DNA of 64,000 bases from an uncultured bacterium (GTDB lineage: Bacteria; Cyanobacteriota; Vampirovibrionia; Gastranaerophilales; Gastranaerophilaceae). The stretch spans positions 1 through 64,000 of the forward strand of contig CADAKY010000002.1 in the NCBI GenBank assembly GCA_902788575.1, in the 5' to 3' direction. Below are positions 33,758 to 40,958 of the stretch, in pieces (the first letter of the stretch is position 1; the number at the start of each line of letters is the position of its first letter). A program made the translations under genes and the position numbers. The notes beneath the pieces are model-generated. The model was not told the DNA's origin. It saw only the letters and a list, made by a program, of their open reading frames with translations, and did no database searches.

Positions 33758-33824
33758 GTGTTATTAAAACAATATTACGAAAATTATTATTGTTTTTTTA
33801 CTAATCCTTCAAACGAATGATTTT

Positions 33825-33854
33825 TTGGCGCGAAAAAAAATATTCTGTTATAAT
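33825..33854 (+). promoter_or_regulatory. Sigma-70 promoter of the fliL operon
   Basis: TTGGCG (33825-33830), 18-base spacer, TATAAT (33849-33854), about 35 bases before the fliL start. Confidence 0.65.
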
Positions 33855-33888
33855 GAGATTGGAATATTATAATGTGGCGGAGAACAAA

Positions 33889-34479
33889 ATGGCTGAGAAT
33901 GAAAATAATACAAACGGACAGGAATTTAAGAAGATTTCTATTATAATGATTGCTTCAATGGTTATATTGCTGCTGGTGTTTTCAGCCGTAAACTACGTTG
34001 TTGTTAAAAATCTTGTACAAAAAATTGAAATTACTGCTCCTGCTGATGAAGAGGTTGCAGAAGATGGTGATGAAGAAGAAATTCAAAAAGGTATTATCGT
34101 TGATTTAGGTGATTTTATACTTAATTTGTGTGACGAAAATCAAAGAAAATATTTAAAAGTAAATGTGGCAATAGAAGTTTCTAAAAAAGAAACAGATTTT
34201 CCGGCACAGGATGCTGCACCGGCTAAAGGCGGACACGGTCATGAAGAAGCTCCGGCTCCTGCAGATCCGATGGCTGCAATTCAGACAGAAATGAATCAAT
34301 ATAAACCGGCAATAAGAGATGCCGTTATTACAAATCTGTCCAGCAAAACATCTGCAGAGCTATCTACTGCAGCAGGAAAAGAACTTGCAAAAGAACAAAT
34401 AACAAATGATATAAATTCAATACTTGGCGGAGAAAGAGAAGTCCTGAGGGTAAGCTTTGGACAGTTCATTATTCAATAG
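33889..34479 (+). CDS. fliL: Flagellar basal body protein FliL
   Basis: Single-pass inner-membrane protein that sits around the stator and supports torque. The ATG at 33889 gives 196 residues: short cytoplasmic tail, membrane helix (about 17-40), acidic linker and the FliL domain with VDLGDFILNLCDENQRKYLKVNVAIEV and the C-terminal VLRVSFGQFIIQ. A Pro/Ala/His insert splits the domain. GGAG lies seven bases before this ATG; an in-frame ATG 72 bases upstream lies over the promoter -10 and is rejected. First gene of fliL-fliM-fliN. Confidence 0.88.
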   Translation: MAENENNTNGQEFKKISIIMIASMVILLLVFSAVNYVVVKNLVQKIEITAPADEEVAEDGDEEEIQKGIIVDLGDFILNLCDENQRKYLKVNVAIEVSKKETDFPAQDAAPAKGGHGHEEAPAPADPMAAIQTEMNQYKPAIRDAVITNLSSKTSAELSTAAGKELAKEQITNDINSILGGEREVLRVSFGQFIIQ

Positions 34480-34485
34480 GGAAAA

Positions 34486-35466
34486 ATGACAGAAAGTAAT
34501 CAAGAAAATTTAATAAATTCAAATGTTTTGGATGAAGATTTTTCGGATGCGGAACACAAAAGTTACAAATTATATAACTTCAGACGTCCGGACAAATTTT
34601 CTAAGGATAATTTGCGTGCTTTGAGAGATATTCACAGAGAATTTTCTAAGGCAATTTCGCTTGTTTTAAGCGGTTATCTTCGTATGAGAGTAGAAATAGA
34701 AATTGTTTCTGTAGACCAGCTTACTTATGAAGAATTTGTTCGTTCAATGCCGTCCCCGATAAGTGTCGGTGTATTTGAATTTGAGCCGTTAGCAGGTCAA
34801 ATTCTTCTGGGGATAAGCTTTGAAGTTATATCTTGTATAGTTAACAGAATGCTTGGAGGTGTCGGGAATATTGATTCTCAGTCAAGAGAATTGACCGATA
34901 TTGAAAAAGCTCTTGCCAAAAAAGTTATTAATATAATTATCAAATCATTGGAAGATTCGTGGAATACAATCATTCCGGTTACAGGCAAATTTATAAGTAT
35001 TGATGACAATTATCAATCTATTCAGGTTGCAACAGCCGGAGAAATTGTTGCTCTTCTGACATTTGAAGTTCAGATTTCCGGTAAACATTTTGGATTATTT
35101 AGTTTGTGTTTCCCATACCCTGTACTTGAAACAGTATTAGGACACCTGAGTACACAACATATTTTCCAGACAAAAGGTTTGGTAGCATCTAATGATGAAA
35201 GAATGAAAATGATTTCCAAAATCAATTCTTCAACAGTTGATGTCCGTGTTCAATTCGGAACTTGCAGTATCACTCTGGATGACTTTTTGCAACTTGCGGA
35301 AGGTGACATCATAAAGCTTGATAACAAAGTTGAAGATGATTTGATAGTAAAAGTTAATGATGAAAAGAAGTTCTTTGCACGTCCGGGAATTATGAAGAAT
35401 CAGGTTTGTGTGAAGATTACTGATGTATATGATGAAATGCATGAAATTTTAAGAAATTATTTTTAG
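34486..35466 (+). CDS. fliM: Flagellar motor switch protein FliM
   Basis: C-ring component that binds phosphorylated CheY. The 326 residues show the N-terminal region with YNFRRPDKFSKDNLRALRDIHREF, the CheC-like middle domain (PSPISVGVFEFEPLAGQILLGIS, DIEKALAKKVI) and a C-terminal SpoA domain (VDVRVQFGTCSITLDDFLQLAEGDIIKL). The extreme N terminus lacks a clear LSQxEIDALL CheY-binding motif. It follows fliL by six bases. Confidence 0.93.
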   Translation: MTESNQENLINSNVLDEDFSDAEHKSYKLYNFRRPDKFSKDNLRALRDIHREFSKAISLVLSGYLRMRVEIEIVSVDQLTYEEFVRSMPSPISVGVFEFEPLAGQILLGISFEVISCIVNRMLGGVGNIDSQSRELTDIEKALAKKVINIIIKSLEDSWNTIIPVTGKFISIDDNYQSIQVATAGEIVALLTFEVQISGKHFGLFSLCFPYPVLETVLGHLSTQHIFQTKGLVASNDERMKMISKINSSTVDVRVQFGTCSITLDDFLQLAEGDIIKLDNKVEDDLIVKVNDEKKFFARPGIMKNQVCVKITDVYDEMHEILRNYF

Positions 35467-35480
35467 GAAGGGGAGCCTAA

Positions 35481-36035
35481 ATGCCTGACGATAAAAAAGA
35501 TGAATTAAATGAACAAAACGAAACTGCAGCTGGTGAAGCAGAAACTTCAAAAACGGAGAGTTCTGCAGCAGAACCGGCAGCAGATGAAACCGGAAAAGAA
35601 GACAACGAGACAAAAAAGAATGATGGTGTAAAAAATTTCAAGCCGGAATCTTTTGAAGAAGAACATCCCGAAGAAGAGGAGGTTCCGAGAACTGTAACTG
35701 TTCAACCGGTTCAGTTTGCATCTTTTGAGGATATGGACCAGATTCAGGGACCTCAAAACCAAAACCTGAATATTCTTCTTGATGTTAAGCTTCAGTTATC
35801 AGTAGAGCTTGGTAAAACAGATTTGCCTATCAAAAAAGTTTTGGAGCTTACAAAAGGTTCTATTGTTACTCTTAATAAAGCAGCCGGTGAACCTGTTGAA
35901 TTATATGCAAACGGTAAACTTATTGCGTATGGTGAAGTTGTTGTTATTGAAGATAACTTTGGTTTAAGAATTACGCACATTACTGATCCGGTTAAACGTT
36001 TGAATACTATTAACAGTACCAGAGAAGATTACTAG
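35481..36035 (+). CDS. fliN: Flagellar motor switch protein FliN
   Basis: C-ring protein; the C-terminal SpoA domain (about 100-175; NILLDVKLQLSVELGKTDLPIKK, LYANGKLIAYGEVVVIEDNFGLRI) is typical. The first 95 residues are an acidic, Glu/Ala/Thr-rich low-complexity extension, so the protein (184 residues) is longer than E. coli FliN, closer to FliY-type proteins but without a CheC phosphatase domain. GGAAGGGG precedes the ATG. Confidence 0.92.
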   Translation: MPDDKKDELNEQNETAAGEAETSKTESSAAEPAADETGKEDNETKKNDGVKNFKPESFEEEHPEEEEVPRTVTVQPVQFASFEDMDQIQGPQNQNLNILLDVKLQLSVELGKTDLPIKKVLELTKGSIVTLNKAAGEPVELYANGKLIAYGEVVVIEDNFGLRITHITDPVKRLNTINSTREDY

Positions 36036-36038
36036 CAA

Positions 36039-36506
36039 ATGAAGAAAATTGCAATCCTATATGAAACTTATCGACCGGTTATTGATTCACTAAAGTCGCT
36101 CGGATATGTTACTGATTGCTATACTTCTTTGAATTTTAGTCCTGATGATTATGATTTGGTTATTTCGACGGATGATAGTAAAAAAACTCCGTTTAGAGTG
36201 TTGACGTCTCATTTATCATTACTTCCTGCATTTGCGGATGAAGAACCGGTGAAAACTGCGGTTCTTTCAGGTGTAAAGGTAACCGGAGTAACTGTGTATT
36301 ATTCAAATCCTGAAACAATTTTAGCTCAATATCCAGTTTTTATATATAATGATGCCCATTATGATGAAATTTATCAGGAACTTACGTACATAGAGCAGGT
36401 ACTTTTGACAACTGTTGCGAATAAAATTTTAAAGAACGAACCGTTTGAAAGTAAAACTCTTTTAGGCAGCAAACATTGCGGAGGATGCAGCGGATGTTCG
36501 AAGTAG
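36039..36506 (+). CDS. Degenerate PurN-like formyltransferase fold
   Basis: A 155-residue protein whose residues about 57-130 follow the C-terminal half of glycinamide ribonucleotide formyltransferase (PurN): SHLSLLPAF for the catalytic NxHPSLLP, VKVTGVTVYYS for the core strand, then ILAQYPVFI and YIEQVLLTTVANKIL. The catalytic Asn is replaced (TSH) and the loop with the catalytic Asp is missing, so formyl transfer is unlikely. It ends in a cysteine-rich tail CGGCSGCSK. It lies three bases after fliN and overlaps the PurD-like gene. A binding or regulatory role linked to motility is inferred. Confidence 0.7.
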   Translation: MKKIAILYETYRPVIDSLKSLGYVTDCYTSLNFSPDDYDLVISTDDSKKTPFRVLTSHLSLLPAFADEEPVKTAVLSGVKVTGVTVYYSNPETILAQYPVFIYNDAHYDEIYQELTYIEQVLLTTVANKILKNEPFESKTLLGSKHCGGCSGCSK

Positions 36507-37306
36507 GTATTCTGAACAGTCAGGGATTAAACGTTCTTTTAATTGGCAGTGAGAATACGGAGTACATTCTTTCATCAAAATTCCTCAGAAAGATGTATGC
36601 AGTGTCGGACAAAAATGTTGAAGGTGTTGTTAATATTTCATTTAATACGTTTAAAGAGCTTGCCCAAAAATGTAAAACTTTACAAATAGATTTGGTATTA
36701 GTAGAAGATGAAAGATGGATTAATGAAGGAATTGCAGATGTAATGAAAAGCAATTATATTAATTGTGTTGCTCCGACTTCCGACTGGACAAAACTGGCTC
36801 TTTCAAATTCTTACTTGAGACAACTTTTGGAAAAATATGGTTTTAATCTGCCAAAGACAACACTTCTTCCTTCTGAATTTCCTCTAATAGTTAAGGGAGA
36901 TGGTGTACTAAAGAAAGCAGATTGCCTTCAGGATGTTATAAAAATAAGACAGGAAGTTTATAATAAATCACCGCACATTGCTGCAGGATTATATTTGGAA
37001 AAATATTTGGAGGGAGAAAAATTTTACATTATCTCTCTTTATGATGGTAAAAACCTTATAACATTTCCGGTTGAAAATGTACCGGAGGAAATGTTGTCAG
37101 AATTTTCAAAAAAAACAGAAGTAATGTTGAATAAAGAAAATGCAAATTTTTTGGGCTTTATACAGTCTGAAGTTATTTTATGTGATAATATGTTATATAA
37201 TACAGGTTTCAAATTTGGTTTTCGAAAAATTAATTGTGATATAGATATTTTATATTTATTATGGATGGCAATATACGGTAAGTTAAACGAAATCAGCATA
37301 ACCTGA
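36494..37306 (+). CDS. Degenerate PurD-like ATP-grasp protein
   Basis: A 270-residue protein resembling a shortened glycinamide ribonucleotide synthetase (PurD). NVLLIGSENTEYIL stands for VLVIGxGGREHAL, DLVLVEDERWINEGIAD for the D-V-GPE-PL-GI region, then VAPTSDWTKLALSNSYLRQLLEKYG, FPLIVKGDGVLKKAD for the ATP-grasp lysine strand, and YLEKYLEGEKFYII. The glycine-rich loop (GLAAGKGV) and the metal-binding ExN of the EFNxRFGD motif are lost, and the C-terminal domain is absent. The ATG at 36494 has GGAGG nine bases upstream. It overlaps the PurN-like gene by 13 bases. Confidence 0.7.
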   Translation: MFEVGILNSQGLNVLLIGSENTEYILSSKFLRKMYAVSDKNVEGVVNISFNTFKELAQKCKTLQIDLVLVEDERWINEGIADVMKSNYINCVAPTSDWTKLALSNSYLRQLLEKYGFNLPKTTLLPSEFPLIVKGDGVLKKADCLQDVIKIRQEVYNKSPHIAAGLYLEKYLEGEKFYIISLYDGKNLITFPVENVPEEMLSEFSKKTEVMLNKENANFLGFIQSEVILCDNMLYNTGFKFGFRKINCDIDILYLLWMAIYGKLNEISIT

Positions 37307-37319
37307 AAAGGTGTATATT

Positions 37320-37496
37320 ATGAGTGAAAGTCAAAAAGATATTAACGCAGAATTGAATAATTTAAAAAATTTAGCACTTCTTCTCAGGAATGCTGCTCAA
37401 AATGCGATTAATGATAATGAAGAACTTTCTGCTGATGATTTTTTGGATAGTATTAATTTGATAATAGATAAAATTGATGGAATTATACAAAAATAA
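37320..37496 (+). CDS. Small coiled-coil protein
   Basis: A 58-residue acidic, heptad-rich helical protein of unknown function. AAAAGG lies eight bases before the ATG at 37320; a GTG nine bases upstream is less likely. It sits between the PurD-like gene and coaD and is probably part of the fliL operon. Confidence 0.6.
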   Translation: MSESQKDINAELNNLKNLALLLRNAAQNAINDNEELSADDFLDSINLIIDKIDGIIQK

Positions 37497-38023: not shown

Positions 38024-40958
38024 TTAAAATATTTTTAATTTGTCTTGAGAATTCTGCCTGATTGAAATTGTCTTTTGACATATAATAATCTATTTTCATG
38101 CCCTGAAGTTTTTCACTGGCTTCTTTTTCAGGTTGAGAACTCATTACAATGACCGGAATATCGGCAAACATTTCATCATTTTTTAACCTTTGGACAAATT
38201 CATATCCGTCAACTTTTGGCATATTCAAATCTGTTATTATTAAATCATAATGGTTAAGTTTCAGTTTTACCAATGCTTCTTCAACATTGGATACAATATC
38301 TGCTGTATAACCTGAATTTAGTAAGATATTTTTTACCATCGTTCTTGTTGTAACAGAATCATCAACTGCGAGAATTCGTTTGTAAGAAAGAATATCATTT
38401 GACAAGAGGTTTTGACTTGAATTTCCGCTTACAGCTTTATTGAAGTCATAATGCATAATATCCTGCATGTTAAGAATCAGACATAATTCTCCTGATGCAA
38501 GGTTGGTTATTCCTGAAATGTTTTTAACTTTATAAAGAGGCGGAGAAAGTTTTTTCTGTAGAATATCCTGATCGCCGAGTAATTTATCGACAACAAGACC
38601 GATTTTTTTATCATCGGATTCTACAATAAGTATTGTTTCTTTTTCTTGTCTTGGCGGGGTTTCCAGCTGTAAAATATCAGACAGATAATAAAGCGGAACG
38701 ATACTGCCGTCATGCAATATAGAACGCTGACCGTTATTAGTGTTTATTTCACTTTGGTTCTTTAAAATAAATGTTGAAATTACCTGTATAGGAATTGCAA
38801 AAACTTGTTCGGAAATTTTTACAAGGAATACTCTCAGTGTTGTAAGTGTTACAGGAATTTCTATATGTACGCAGCTGCCTTTGCCAAATTCTGAAATTAC
38901 TTTAACTTTTCCGTTGAGCTGAGAAATTTTTGTTTTAACTACGTCCAGTCCGATTCCTCTTCCGGAAACACTTGTGATAGAATCACCTGTTGTAAATCCG
39001 GGCCAGAATATTATGTTCATAATAGCTTCATCATTCATTGATGCAATATCTTCTTTTGTAAGAAAACCTCTGGAAACGGCTCTATCTTTAATTTTTTCAA
39101 GGTTAAATCCTCTGCCGTCATCGACAACATCTATAATAACTTTATTATCATCCTGTTTCGCCGAAAGTATAATTTTTCCGACAGGACTTTTTCCTGCTGC
39201 CATTCGCTCTTCACGTGTTTCAATTCCATGGTCAATTGAGTTTCTGAGAATATGTATCAAAGGAGTTTTAATCTCTTCAATAATTTTTTTGTCAGCGCAG
39301 GTTTCTTTTCCTTCAATTTCAAAATCAATATCTTTACCTTTTTCAGTTGCGATATCTCTTACCATTCTGGAAAAAGAATTAAATACTGTAGAAATAGGAA
39401 GTACGCGGATATTTTTGACCATTGATTCCATTTCATCAATAATAAGTCTCATTTTTATATCGTCTTCTTTTGATGAACGGTAAAGTGAATTTAAATCATA
39501 AATTGTCTTTGAAACATTTTGTGTGATATCCGAAAGTAATGAAAATACTTGTTTAACAAATGCACCTGTGTATTGAAAAGAGCCATCGGATTGAAGATAT
39601 TTACGGTTATAATATCTTAAAAAATTTGAAGTTTTCAATAAATCCTTTTGGCAAACTTCATTTGCAATTTTTATAGAATCAATCTTTTCAAGATTCTTTT
39701 CGGTTTTAATTTTTGTAATGATGAGTTCACCAAGCTGATTAACCAGTAAATCAAGCTTTTGTGCATTTACGTGCAGAGTTTTTATTTCTGTTGAAGAATT
39801 TGTCTTATTTCCGCCTACGGATGTCTGAGTTGAAAGGGTTTTTATATTACTTACGCCGGTATCTTTTTTATAGTTAAGCTCCAGCAATTGCTTCATTATT
39901 TCCAATTGCTGAACAATAAGCTCGGAATCAATATTTTCATTTGGTGCAGCGCAATATTCTATTCCGCTTTTTAAAGTGAGCATCATTTGTTCTTCAAGTT
40001 GTACGGAATTTTCGGTTATGAAATCCAAAATTTCTAAAGTCATATTGATGATTTCAAGAATATTATGATCATCAATACCTTCTTTAAGTTTTAATATATC
40101 TTCTTTTATTTCATTTGTGTAAACACTGCTGCCTTGAAGCATTGTTATTTTTTCCGCTACATCAAAAAACGAAAGTCCGCCTGATTCTGAAGCAATGCAG
40201 GAGGTTGTGTATTTTGCTGCTGCTGAGCTTAATTCGTTTCTTATTTCTAAAATTTCGCTTACGGTCAATGTGTTTGTTGCGTTCATTACAAAATCAAGCT
40301 TTGTAATAATATTTTCCAGAGATGTTTTTACCTCGTACAGGTTTGTATTTTTAAAGTATTCATAAAGCTTTTGTATTTCTTCTTCCAAAATAACAAGATC
40401 TTGTGATTCCTGTTCGGGAGTGATTCCGTCTACAAGATTGAAACAATTATTAAATTCGGTATTTATTATTTCCTGATTATCAGTAAGCTCGGAAGGTATA
40501 TCATTTTCAGTATTTTCGGCATCTAATATAGTTGTTTTGTTTGATGCTTCGGGAATTTCAACTTCTACAACATATTCTATATTGGACATTGCCGCTGTGT
40601 AATCGTCATCAATAATTTCGCGTTCATTTTTTATTGATTCCTGTAAATATTTAGATACGGTTTCCAGAGTTTTGTATAAAAGTCTTATAACATCCGGTTC
40701 GAGAGTATATGTACCTGTATTTACAGCATCAAACACGTCCTCCATTTTATGAATAATCATTTGGATGTTATTAAATCCTACCATCCGTGTTGCACCTTTA
40801 AGACTGTGCAAATCACGGTAAATAGTTGCGGTTAGTTCTTTATTTGCAGGTGTTGTTTCCAAAGAAAACAAATTGTTAAATAACCGCTCCAATATTTCTT
40901 CAGATTCGGTTTGAAATATACTGAAAACTTCTTTATTGTCGTTATCTGCAAAATCCAT
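38007..40958 (-). CDS. cheA: Hybrid chemotaxis kinase CheA-REC
   Basis: A 983-residue hybrid sensor kinase: N-terminal Hpt domain with phospho-His in RDLHSLKGATRMVGF (about H51), long middle region with a possible second helical domain, a dimerisation stretch, the HATPase with HILRNSIDHGIETREERMAAGK and DDGRGFN, a CheW-like domain (about 700-830), and a C-terminal receiver with phospho-Asp in LIITDLNMPKVDG (about D910). This order matches WspE and other alternative-pathway CheA proteins. It lies 12 bases after the mcp gene on the minus strand. Confidence 0.93.
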   Translation of the reverse strand: MDFADNDNKEVFSIFQTESEEILERLFNNLFSLETTPANKELTATIYRDLHSLKGATRMVGFNNIQMIIHKMEDVFDAVNTGTYTLEPDVIRLLYKTLETVSKYLQESIKNEREIIDDDYTAAMSNIEYVVEVEIPEASNKTTILDAENTENDIPSELTDNQEIINTEFNNCFNLVDGITPEQESQDLVILEEEIQKLYEYFKNTNLYEVKTSLENIITKLDFVMNATNTLTVSEILEIRNELSSAAAKYTTSCIASESGGLSFFDVAEKITMLQGSSVYTNEIKEDILKLKEGIDDHNILEIINMTLEILDFITENSVQLEEQMMLTLKSGIEYCAAPNENIDSELIVQQLEIMKQLLELNYKKDTGVSNIKTLSTQTSVGGNKTNSSTEIKTLHVNAQKLDLLVNQLGELIITKIKTEKNLEKIDSIKIANEVCQKDLLKTSNFLRYYNRKYLQSDGSFQYTGAFVKQVFSLLSDITQNVSKTIYDLNSLYRSSKEDDIKMRLIIDEMESMVKNIRVLPISTVFNSFSRMVRDIATEKGKDIDFEIEGKETCADKKIIEEIKTPLIHILRNSIDHGIETREERMAAGKSPVGKIILSAKQDDNKVIIDVVDDGRGFNLEKIKDRAVSRGFLTKEDIASMNDEAIMNIIFWPGFTTGDSITSVSGRGIGLDVVKTKISQLNGKVKVISEFGKGSCVHIEIPVTLTTLRVFLVKISEQVFAIPIQVISTFILKNQSEINTNNGQRSILHDGSIVPLYYLSDILQLETPPRQEKETILIVESDDKKIGLVVDKLLGDQDILQKKLSPPLYKVKNISGITNLASGELCLILNMQDIMHYDFNKAVSGNSSQNLLSNDILSYKRILAVDDSVTTRTMVKNILLNSGYTADIVSNVEEALVKLKLNHYDLIITDLNMPKVDGYEFVQRLKNDEMFADIPVIVMSSQPEKEASEKLQGMKIDYYMSKDNFNQAEFSRQIKNILTKYHV

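Follow-up and report, generated by a model that had tools for sequence, protein, structure and literature searches.

A Degenerate PurN/PurD Pair in a Gastranaerophilaceae Genus, Probably a Non-catalytic Remnant of a Lost Purine Pathway

The window analyzed here, a stretch of 64,000 nucleotides from an uncultured bacterium of the Gastranaerophilaceae, encodes two short proteins, PurN′ and PurD′, which are related to the purine enzymes glycinamide ribonucleotide (GAR) formyltransferase and GAR synthetase. With a probability of roughly 0.55, we regard this pair as what remains, conserved but non-catalytic and probably nucleotide-binding, of a purine pathway that has been lost.

Locus and Reading Frames

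The genes fliL (33817..34479), fliM (34486..35466), and fliN (35481..36035), all on the + strand and recognized by family matches, are the upstream neighbors of purN′ (36039..36506, +; 155 aa), the product of which is designated a pseudo-glycinamide-ribonucleotide formyltransferase, and of purD′ (36494..37306, +; 270 aa), which specifies a pseudo-GAR synthetase. Both designations are based on profile searches, AlphaFold2 models, and residue alignments. Three bases separate the fliN stop (36035) from the purN′ open reading frame (ORF), and the two pur frames overlap by 13 nt if ATG 36494 is taken as the purD′ start; the ORF coordinates thus confirm the initial annotation of a PurN-like and PurD-like pair directly behind fliN. 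This ATG (36494-36496) lies 8 nt past a GGAGGA Shine-Dalgarno sequence (36480-36485) and appears better placed than the TTG at 36476; the whole element (36480..36496, +) is contained within the codons of the CGGCSGC tail of PurN′. A small ORF that follows (37311..37496, +; 57 aa from the ATG at 37323) has no significant family match and is absent from the relatives' loci that were searched.

The genome to which the window belongs is a draft of 36 contigs (1.73 Mb, 88% complete). The close relatives carrying the pair are rumen Candidatus Gastranaerophilales MAGs, so the window presumably comes from one as well, and because these independent assemblies possess the pair too, an assembly artefact was rejected. 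A search of viral contigs revealed no viral or phage relatives of the pair.

Loss of Catalytic Elements

PurN′ matches the Pfam family Formyl_trans_N with an E value of 7.9e-8, which is over the cut-off, and scores 30.9 bits against the PurN model TIGR00639, under the NCBIfam equivalog cut-off of 150.1. Its AlphaFold2 model (pLDDT 86) retains the C-terminal half of the formyltransferase fold, while the N-terminal half is shortened and the tail is disordered (pLDDT <50 from residue 141); the top Foldseek matches are PurN structures, with TMq values of about 0.6-0.7. The loss of the formyltransferase Asn and Asp loop, noted earlier from the window, is borne out among 26 distinct short PurN′ sequences: Asn106 is retained in three (the window has T at this position), and the Asp144 loop is deleted in every one. 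His108 is kept in 24. The GNGSN loop, which binds GAR, is gone from PurN′.

PurD′ is likewise over the Pfam cut-off for GARS_N (5.4e-7) and is matched by TIGR00877 purD (2.1e-11, 43.3 bits) without reaching the NCBIfam equivalog cut-off of 288. The AlphaFold2 model is compact, with a pLDDT of 94, and superposes on GAR synthetase 2qk4 with TMq values of 0.81-0.83. For PurN′ and PurD′, the predicted structures thus gave PurN and GAR synthetase, respectively, as the best matches. Both the ATP-grasp Gly loop and the GPNTGGMG loop are deleted in all 46 distinct short PurD′ sequences, and the metal ligands are mostly lost as well (Glu286 retained in 4, Asn288 in 8), which agrees with the initial annotation. 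Position 145 is Lys or Arg in 44 of the 46, and Glu187 is present in 45; these retained residues may only preserve the fold. The loop deletions are identical among the short proteins, and the remainder of the protein is held. The GARS_C domain is missing, the C-terminal end falling approximately 120 aa short of full-length relatives. In a comparison set of 10 full-length PurD proteins nearly all of the active-site elements are retained; one of these (L134) is the divergent PurD2 described below.

The Cys-rich tail of PurN′ had been considered a gain of the degenerate protein. Relatives with a full-length PurN that looks catalytically intact, however, already have a CGGC-type tail on it. GGAGG occurs within the tail codons of 26/26 short PurN′; in the window it is the Gly-Gly codons that carry this sequence, and the purD′ ATG overlaps the last Cys codon. 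Part of the tail's conservation can therefore be put down to the purD′ ribosome-binding site and start codon residing within it. Two invariant residues, Cys150 and Cys153, are not forced by GGAGG or ATG. The idea that a newly gained metal-binding tail marks a new function is weakened, since the tail predates the degeneration and hosts both signals. An outgroup PurD (G035, L133:6582-7934) also ends in a Cys-rich sequence, GCCGNCGF, which resembles the PurN tails.

Two further purine enzymes were encountered. A PurH relative of 295 aa (L175:4379-5266, - strand; contig C6 of G000, about 38378-39265) occurs nearly throughout the genus. It comprises the AICAR formyltransferase part only, in which the catalytic KH of KHSNPCG has given way to other residues (TPIGICAV), and is better conserved than PurN′ and PurD′, with 74% identity between G000 and G005. 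The second, PurD2 (L174:3447-4679, - strand; contig C5 of G000), is an order-wide second PurD of approximately 410-430 aa from which most active-site residues are missing; it adjoins or neighbors purH in several outgroups and is retained even in families without PurF, PurL, and PurM. Judging by their sequences, the PurH relative and PurD2 are also retained as pseudoenzymes. That all four proteins form a non-catalytic complex which senses purine or AICAR-type metabolites and regulates salvage strikes us as rather improbable.

Status of the Purine Pathway

PurF, PurL, and PurM are absent from the window genome, where the sole match to the PurF model is a GlmS-type protein and that to the AIRS_C model a protein of ThiL size. 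Within the genus, PurM and/or PurL were found only in G004, G010, G015, and G026, and the PurF model gives GlmS-type matches save for one doubtful contig in G015 (C41), which, with its neighbors judged by eye, is probably misbinned. These absences derive from draft genomes, and the pattern holds in several that are 97-99% complete. The window genome possesses the salvage genes hpt (hypoxanthine phosphoribosyltransferase) and apt (adenine phosphoribosyltransferase), together with prs (PRPP synthetase) and purA, from which, given the loss of PurF, PurL, and PurM, we infer a dependence on purine salvage. In the basal branch of the genus, a PurL shortened to 500 aa (L179:3711-5213; contig C1 of G015) occurs with PurM, PurN, and PurD; this branch, having no convincing PurF, possibly supplies AIR for thiamine.

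Distribution and Origin

A search of the genome contigs with an alignment recovered 39 loci, where a single window protein as query recovered none. Short PurD is found in nearly every species of the window's genus (46 distinct loci), usually with short PurN alongside, and among 383 genomes surveyed across the order no other genus gave a strong match to the short profile. All 45 short sequences in the PurD tree fall on one side of a branch with an SH-aLRT value of 98, which points to a single origin; this was a quick tree, in which 21 of 53 inner branches are poorly supported.

The ancestral arrangement can be seen among relatives. In the basal branch of the genus (G004, G010, G015, and G294) purN and purD are still full length, preceded by glgA and purM wherever the contig extends that far, and the outgroup genera display purC-purS-purQ-purL-purF-purM-purN-purD-purE, adjoined by glgA in two. 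At least three sister genera (L195-L199, L202, and L203) carry a fused purN-purD gene, a single ORF encoding approximately 573-590 aa; the fusions follow purM, purF and purL lie upstream in several of the loci, and the two that were domain-scanned each contain all four domains. That the two enzymes are fused in sister genera makes a complex of PurN′ and PurD′ plausible.

PurN′ has been lost several times, the tree requiring seven parsimony changes, some of which are possibly contig-end artefacts, and neither PurN′ nor PurD′ was found in G006 (94% complete). Another genus of the family, g21, contains a parallel shortened PurD of 285 aa (G082, L201:3990-4847) and a further degenerate PurD (G064, L205:3563-4684); no purN was found within the stretch fetched around either.

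Selection on the Pair

The dN/dS ratios of the degenerate proteins, obtained from pairs with usable dS (some dS values exceed 1 and are rough), are 0.06-0.24 for PurD′ and 0.09-0.22 for PurN′, with bootstrap upper bounds of no more than 0.43. The corresponding values are 0.017-0.047 for the neighboring glgA and 0.09-0.11 for full-length PurD. Purifying selection acts on the pair less strongly than on glgA, by a factor of 5 to 10; both proteins change more quickly than ordinary genes, though under clear constraint. These ratios disfavor a pseudogene drifting neutrally, and suggest that PurN′ and PurD′ are working proteins, though not pathway enzymes.

The Flagellar Neighborhood

The initial annotation proposed a repurposed complex, perhaps sensing a purine intermediate or nucleotide and acting on the flagellar motor or export. 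That the pair is degenerate, travels together, and is under selection has been upheld, as has the plausibility of a complex; the connection to the motor or export has not. Only four of the 46 distinct short loci (the window, L117/L151, L135, and L142) adjoin fliLMN, which requires two changes on the PurD′ tree. The usual ancestral neighbor is glgA; at the other loci purN′-purD′, or a lone purD′, lies behind glgA or any of many unrelated genes, a conserved genomic neighborhood being lacking across the relatives. In G010, fliLMN is located approximately 6 kb upstream of glgA-purM-purN-purD in matching orientation, from which a simple deletion could yield the order seen in the window. FliM was found in 30 and FlhA in all 33 of the genus members searched besides the window genome, and their carriers include members with full-length PurN and PurD as well as members without PurN. 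FlhA is present in 56 of 57 genomes sampled and in every member of the genus, so it shows no variation to set against that of the pair, and the repeated loss of PurN has not been accompanied by loss of flagella. Most sampled genomes of the order encode two full-length proteins of the FlhA family (FHIPEP), for example G000:C15:2314-4305 and G000:C19:646-2622.

A sensor acting on the motor would fit the 3-base gap to fliN in the window, and the arrangement recurs in three other species and persists over roughly 50% protein divergence. The remaining 42 short loci were not seen adjoining fliLMN, however, the adjacency itself takes so few changes on the tree and is so readily derived from the G010 order, and flagella occur throughout the order irrespective of the pair. 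Neither neighborhood nor occurrence supports a flagellar partner role, and we consider such a sensor extremely improbable.

Interpretation

We propose that the pair is what survives of purN and purD from the end of an ancestral purine operon; its genus, which inhabits the gut and has lost de novo purine synthesis, presumably lives on salvage. Both proteins have been stripped of their catalytic elements yet retained as folded, selected proteins, as the dN/dS ratios and the confident models show. In PurD′ the N domain persists, as does the portion of the ATP-grasp core that grips the nucleotide in the enzyme, where Lys145 lies on the phosphate side and Glu187 at the hinge; the flexible Gly loop and the substrate loop have disappeared, together with the metal ligands and the C domain. 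The position behind fliN would reflect a chromosomal rearrangement, with shared transcription at most. As to function, we tentatively suggest non-catalytic ligand binding, in which PurD′ might bind a purine nucleotide or phosphoribosyl compound and signal or act as a scaffold, with PurN′ as an optional partner supplied by coupled translation; this is possible rather than probable.

The weaker selection than on glgA, the repeated loss of PurN′, and the lack of both proteins in G006 count against the remnant being a conserved one. These observations, along with the disappearance of the pathway and an evolution much faster than that of glgA or FliM, would also fit purine-operon leftovers that are slowly decaying, have little or no present function, and are subject to residual constraint. 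This we hold to be unlikely, since none of the 46 distinct PurD′ ORFs is disrupted over species divergences that bring dS close to saturation, the dN/dS ratios lie far under 1, and the confidently predicted, compact PurD′ fold has common loop deletions with the rest of the protein held. The persistence of His108 in PurN′ and of Lys145 and Glu187 in PurD′ might instead hint at partial enzymatic activity, such as a different ATP-grasp or formyl-binding reaction with some other substrate. Catalysis is not expected of an ATP-grasp protein without its metal ligands, most of which are replaced in PurD′, and the deletion of its Gly and substrate loops, like that of the Asp144 loop in every PurN′, makes residual activity very unlikely. 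The conserved, non-catalytic remnant is therefore the reading we prefer. The word "purine" is absent from the two main genome papers on this group (PMC3787301 and PMC4040986), and in a literature search we found no paper joining pseudoenzymes, purine biosynthesis, and ATP-grasp proteins.

Comparison with Known Systems

PurD′ shares with PurD (TIGR00877; structures 2qk4, 3lp8, and 1gso) common descent, the fold of the N domain and ATP-grasp core, and a place after purN. It differs in possessing 270 rather than approximately 420 residues, in having neither GARS_C, the Gly loop, the GPNTGGMG loop, nor the metal ligands, and in scoring far under the curated TIGR00877 cut-off. Similarly, PurN′ resembles PurN (TIGR00639; 3da8 and 3p9x) in descent, in the C-terminal half of the fold, in the SLLP motif, and in the catalytic-site His, whereas its N-terminal Rossmann half is reduced to about 50 aa and the catalytic Asn and Asp loop are lost. 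PurD2 resembles PurD′ in being related to PurD while lacking a usable ATP-grasp active site; unlike PurD′ it is full length, older (occurring in the families sampled), and near purH in several outgroups. The fusions of the sister genera contain the same two enzymes in the same order and belong to the same family of bacteria, but their domains are full length, they stand in a purL-purF-purM operon where this is visible, and they are presumably active.

Pseudoenzymes are often paralogs kept beside an active enzyme. What has disappeared in this case is the pathway itself; its enzymes persist across the whole genus as conserved, shortened proteins, which together with their relatives constitute a defined set for ligand testing. 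The intact fusion, the intact pair, the shortened pair, and PurD′ alone all survive in living relatives, whereby the route from enzyme to non-enzyme can be read directly.
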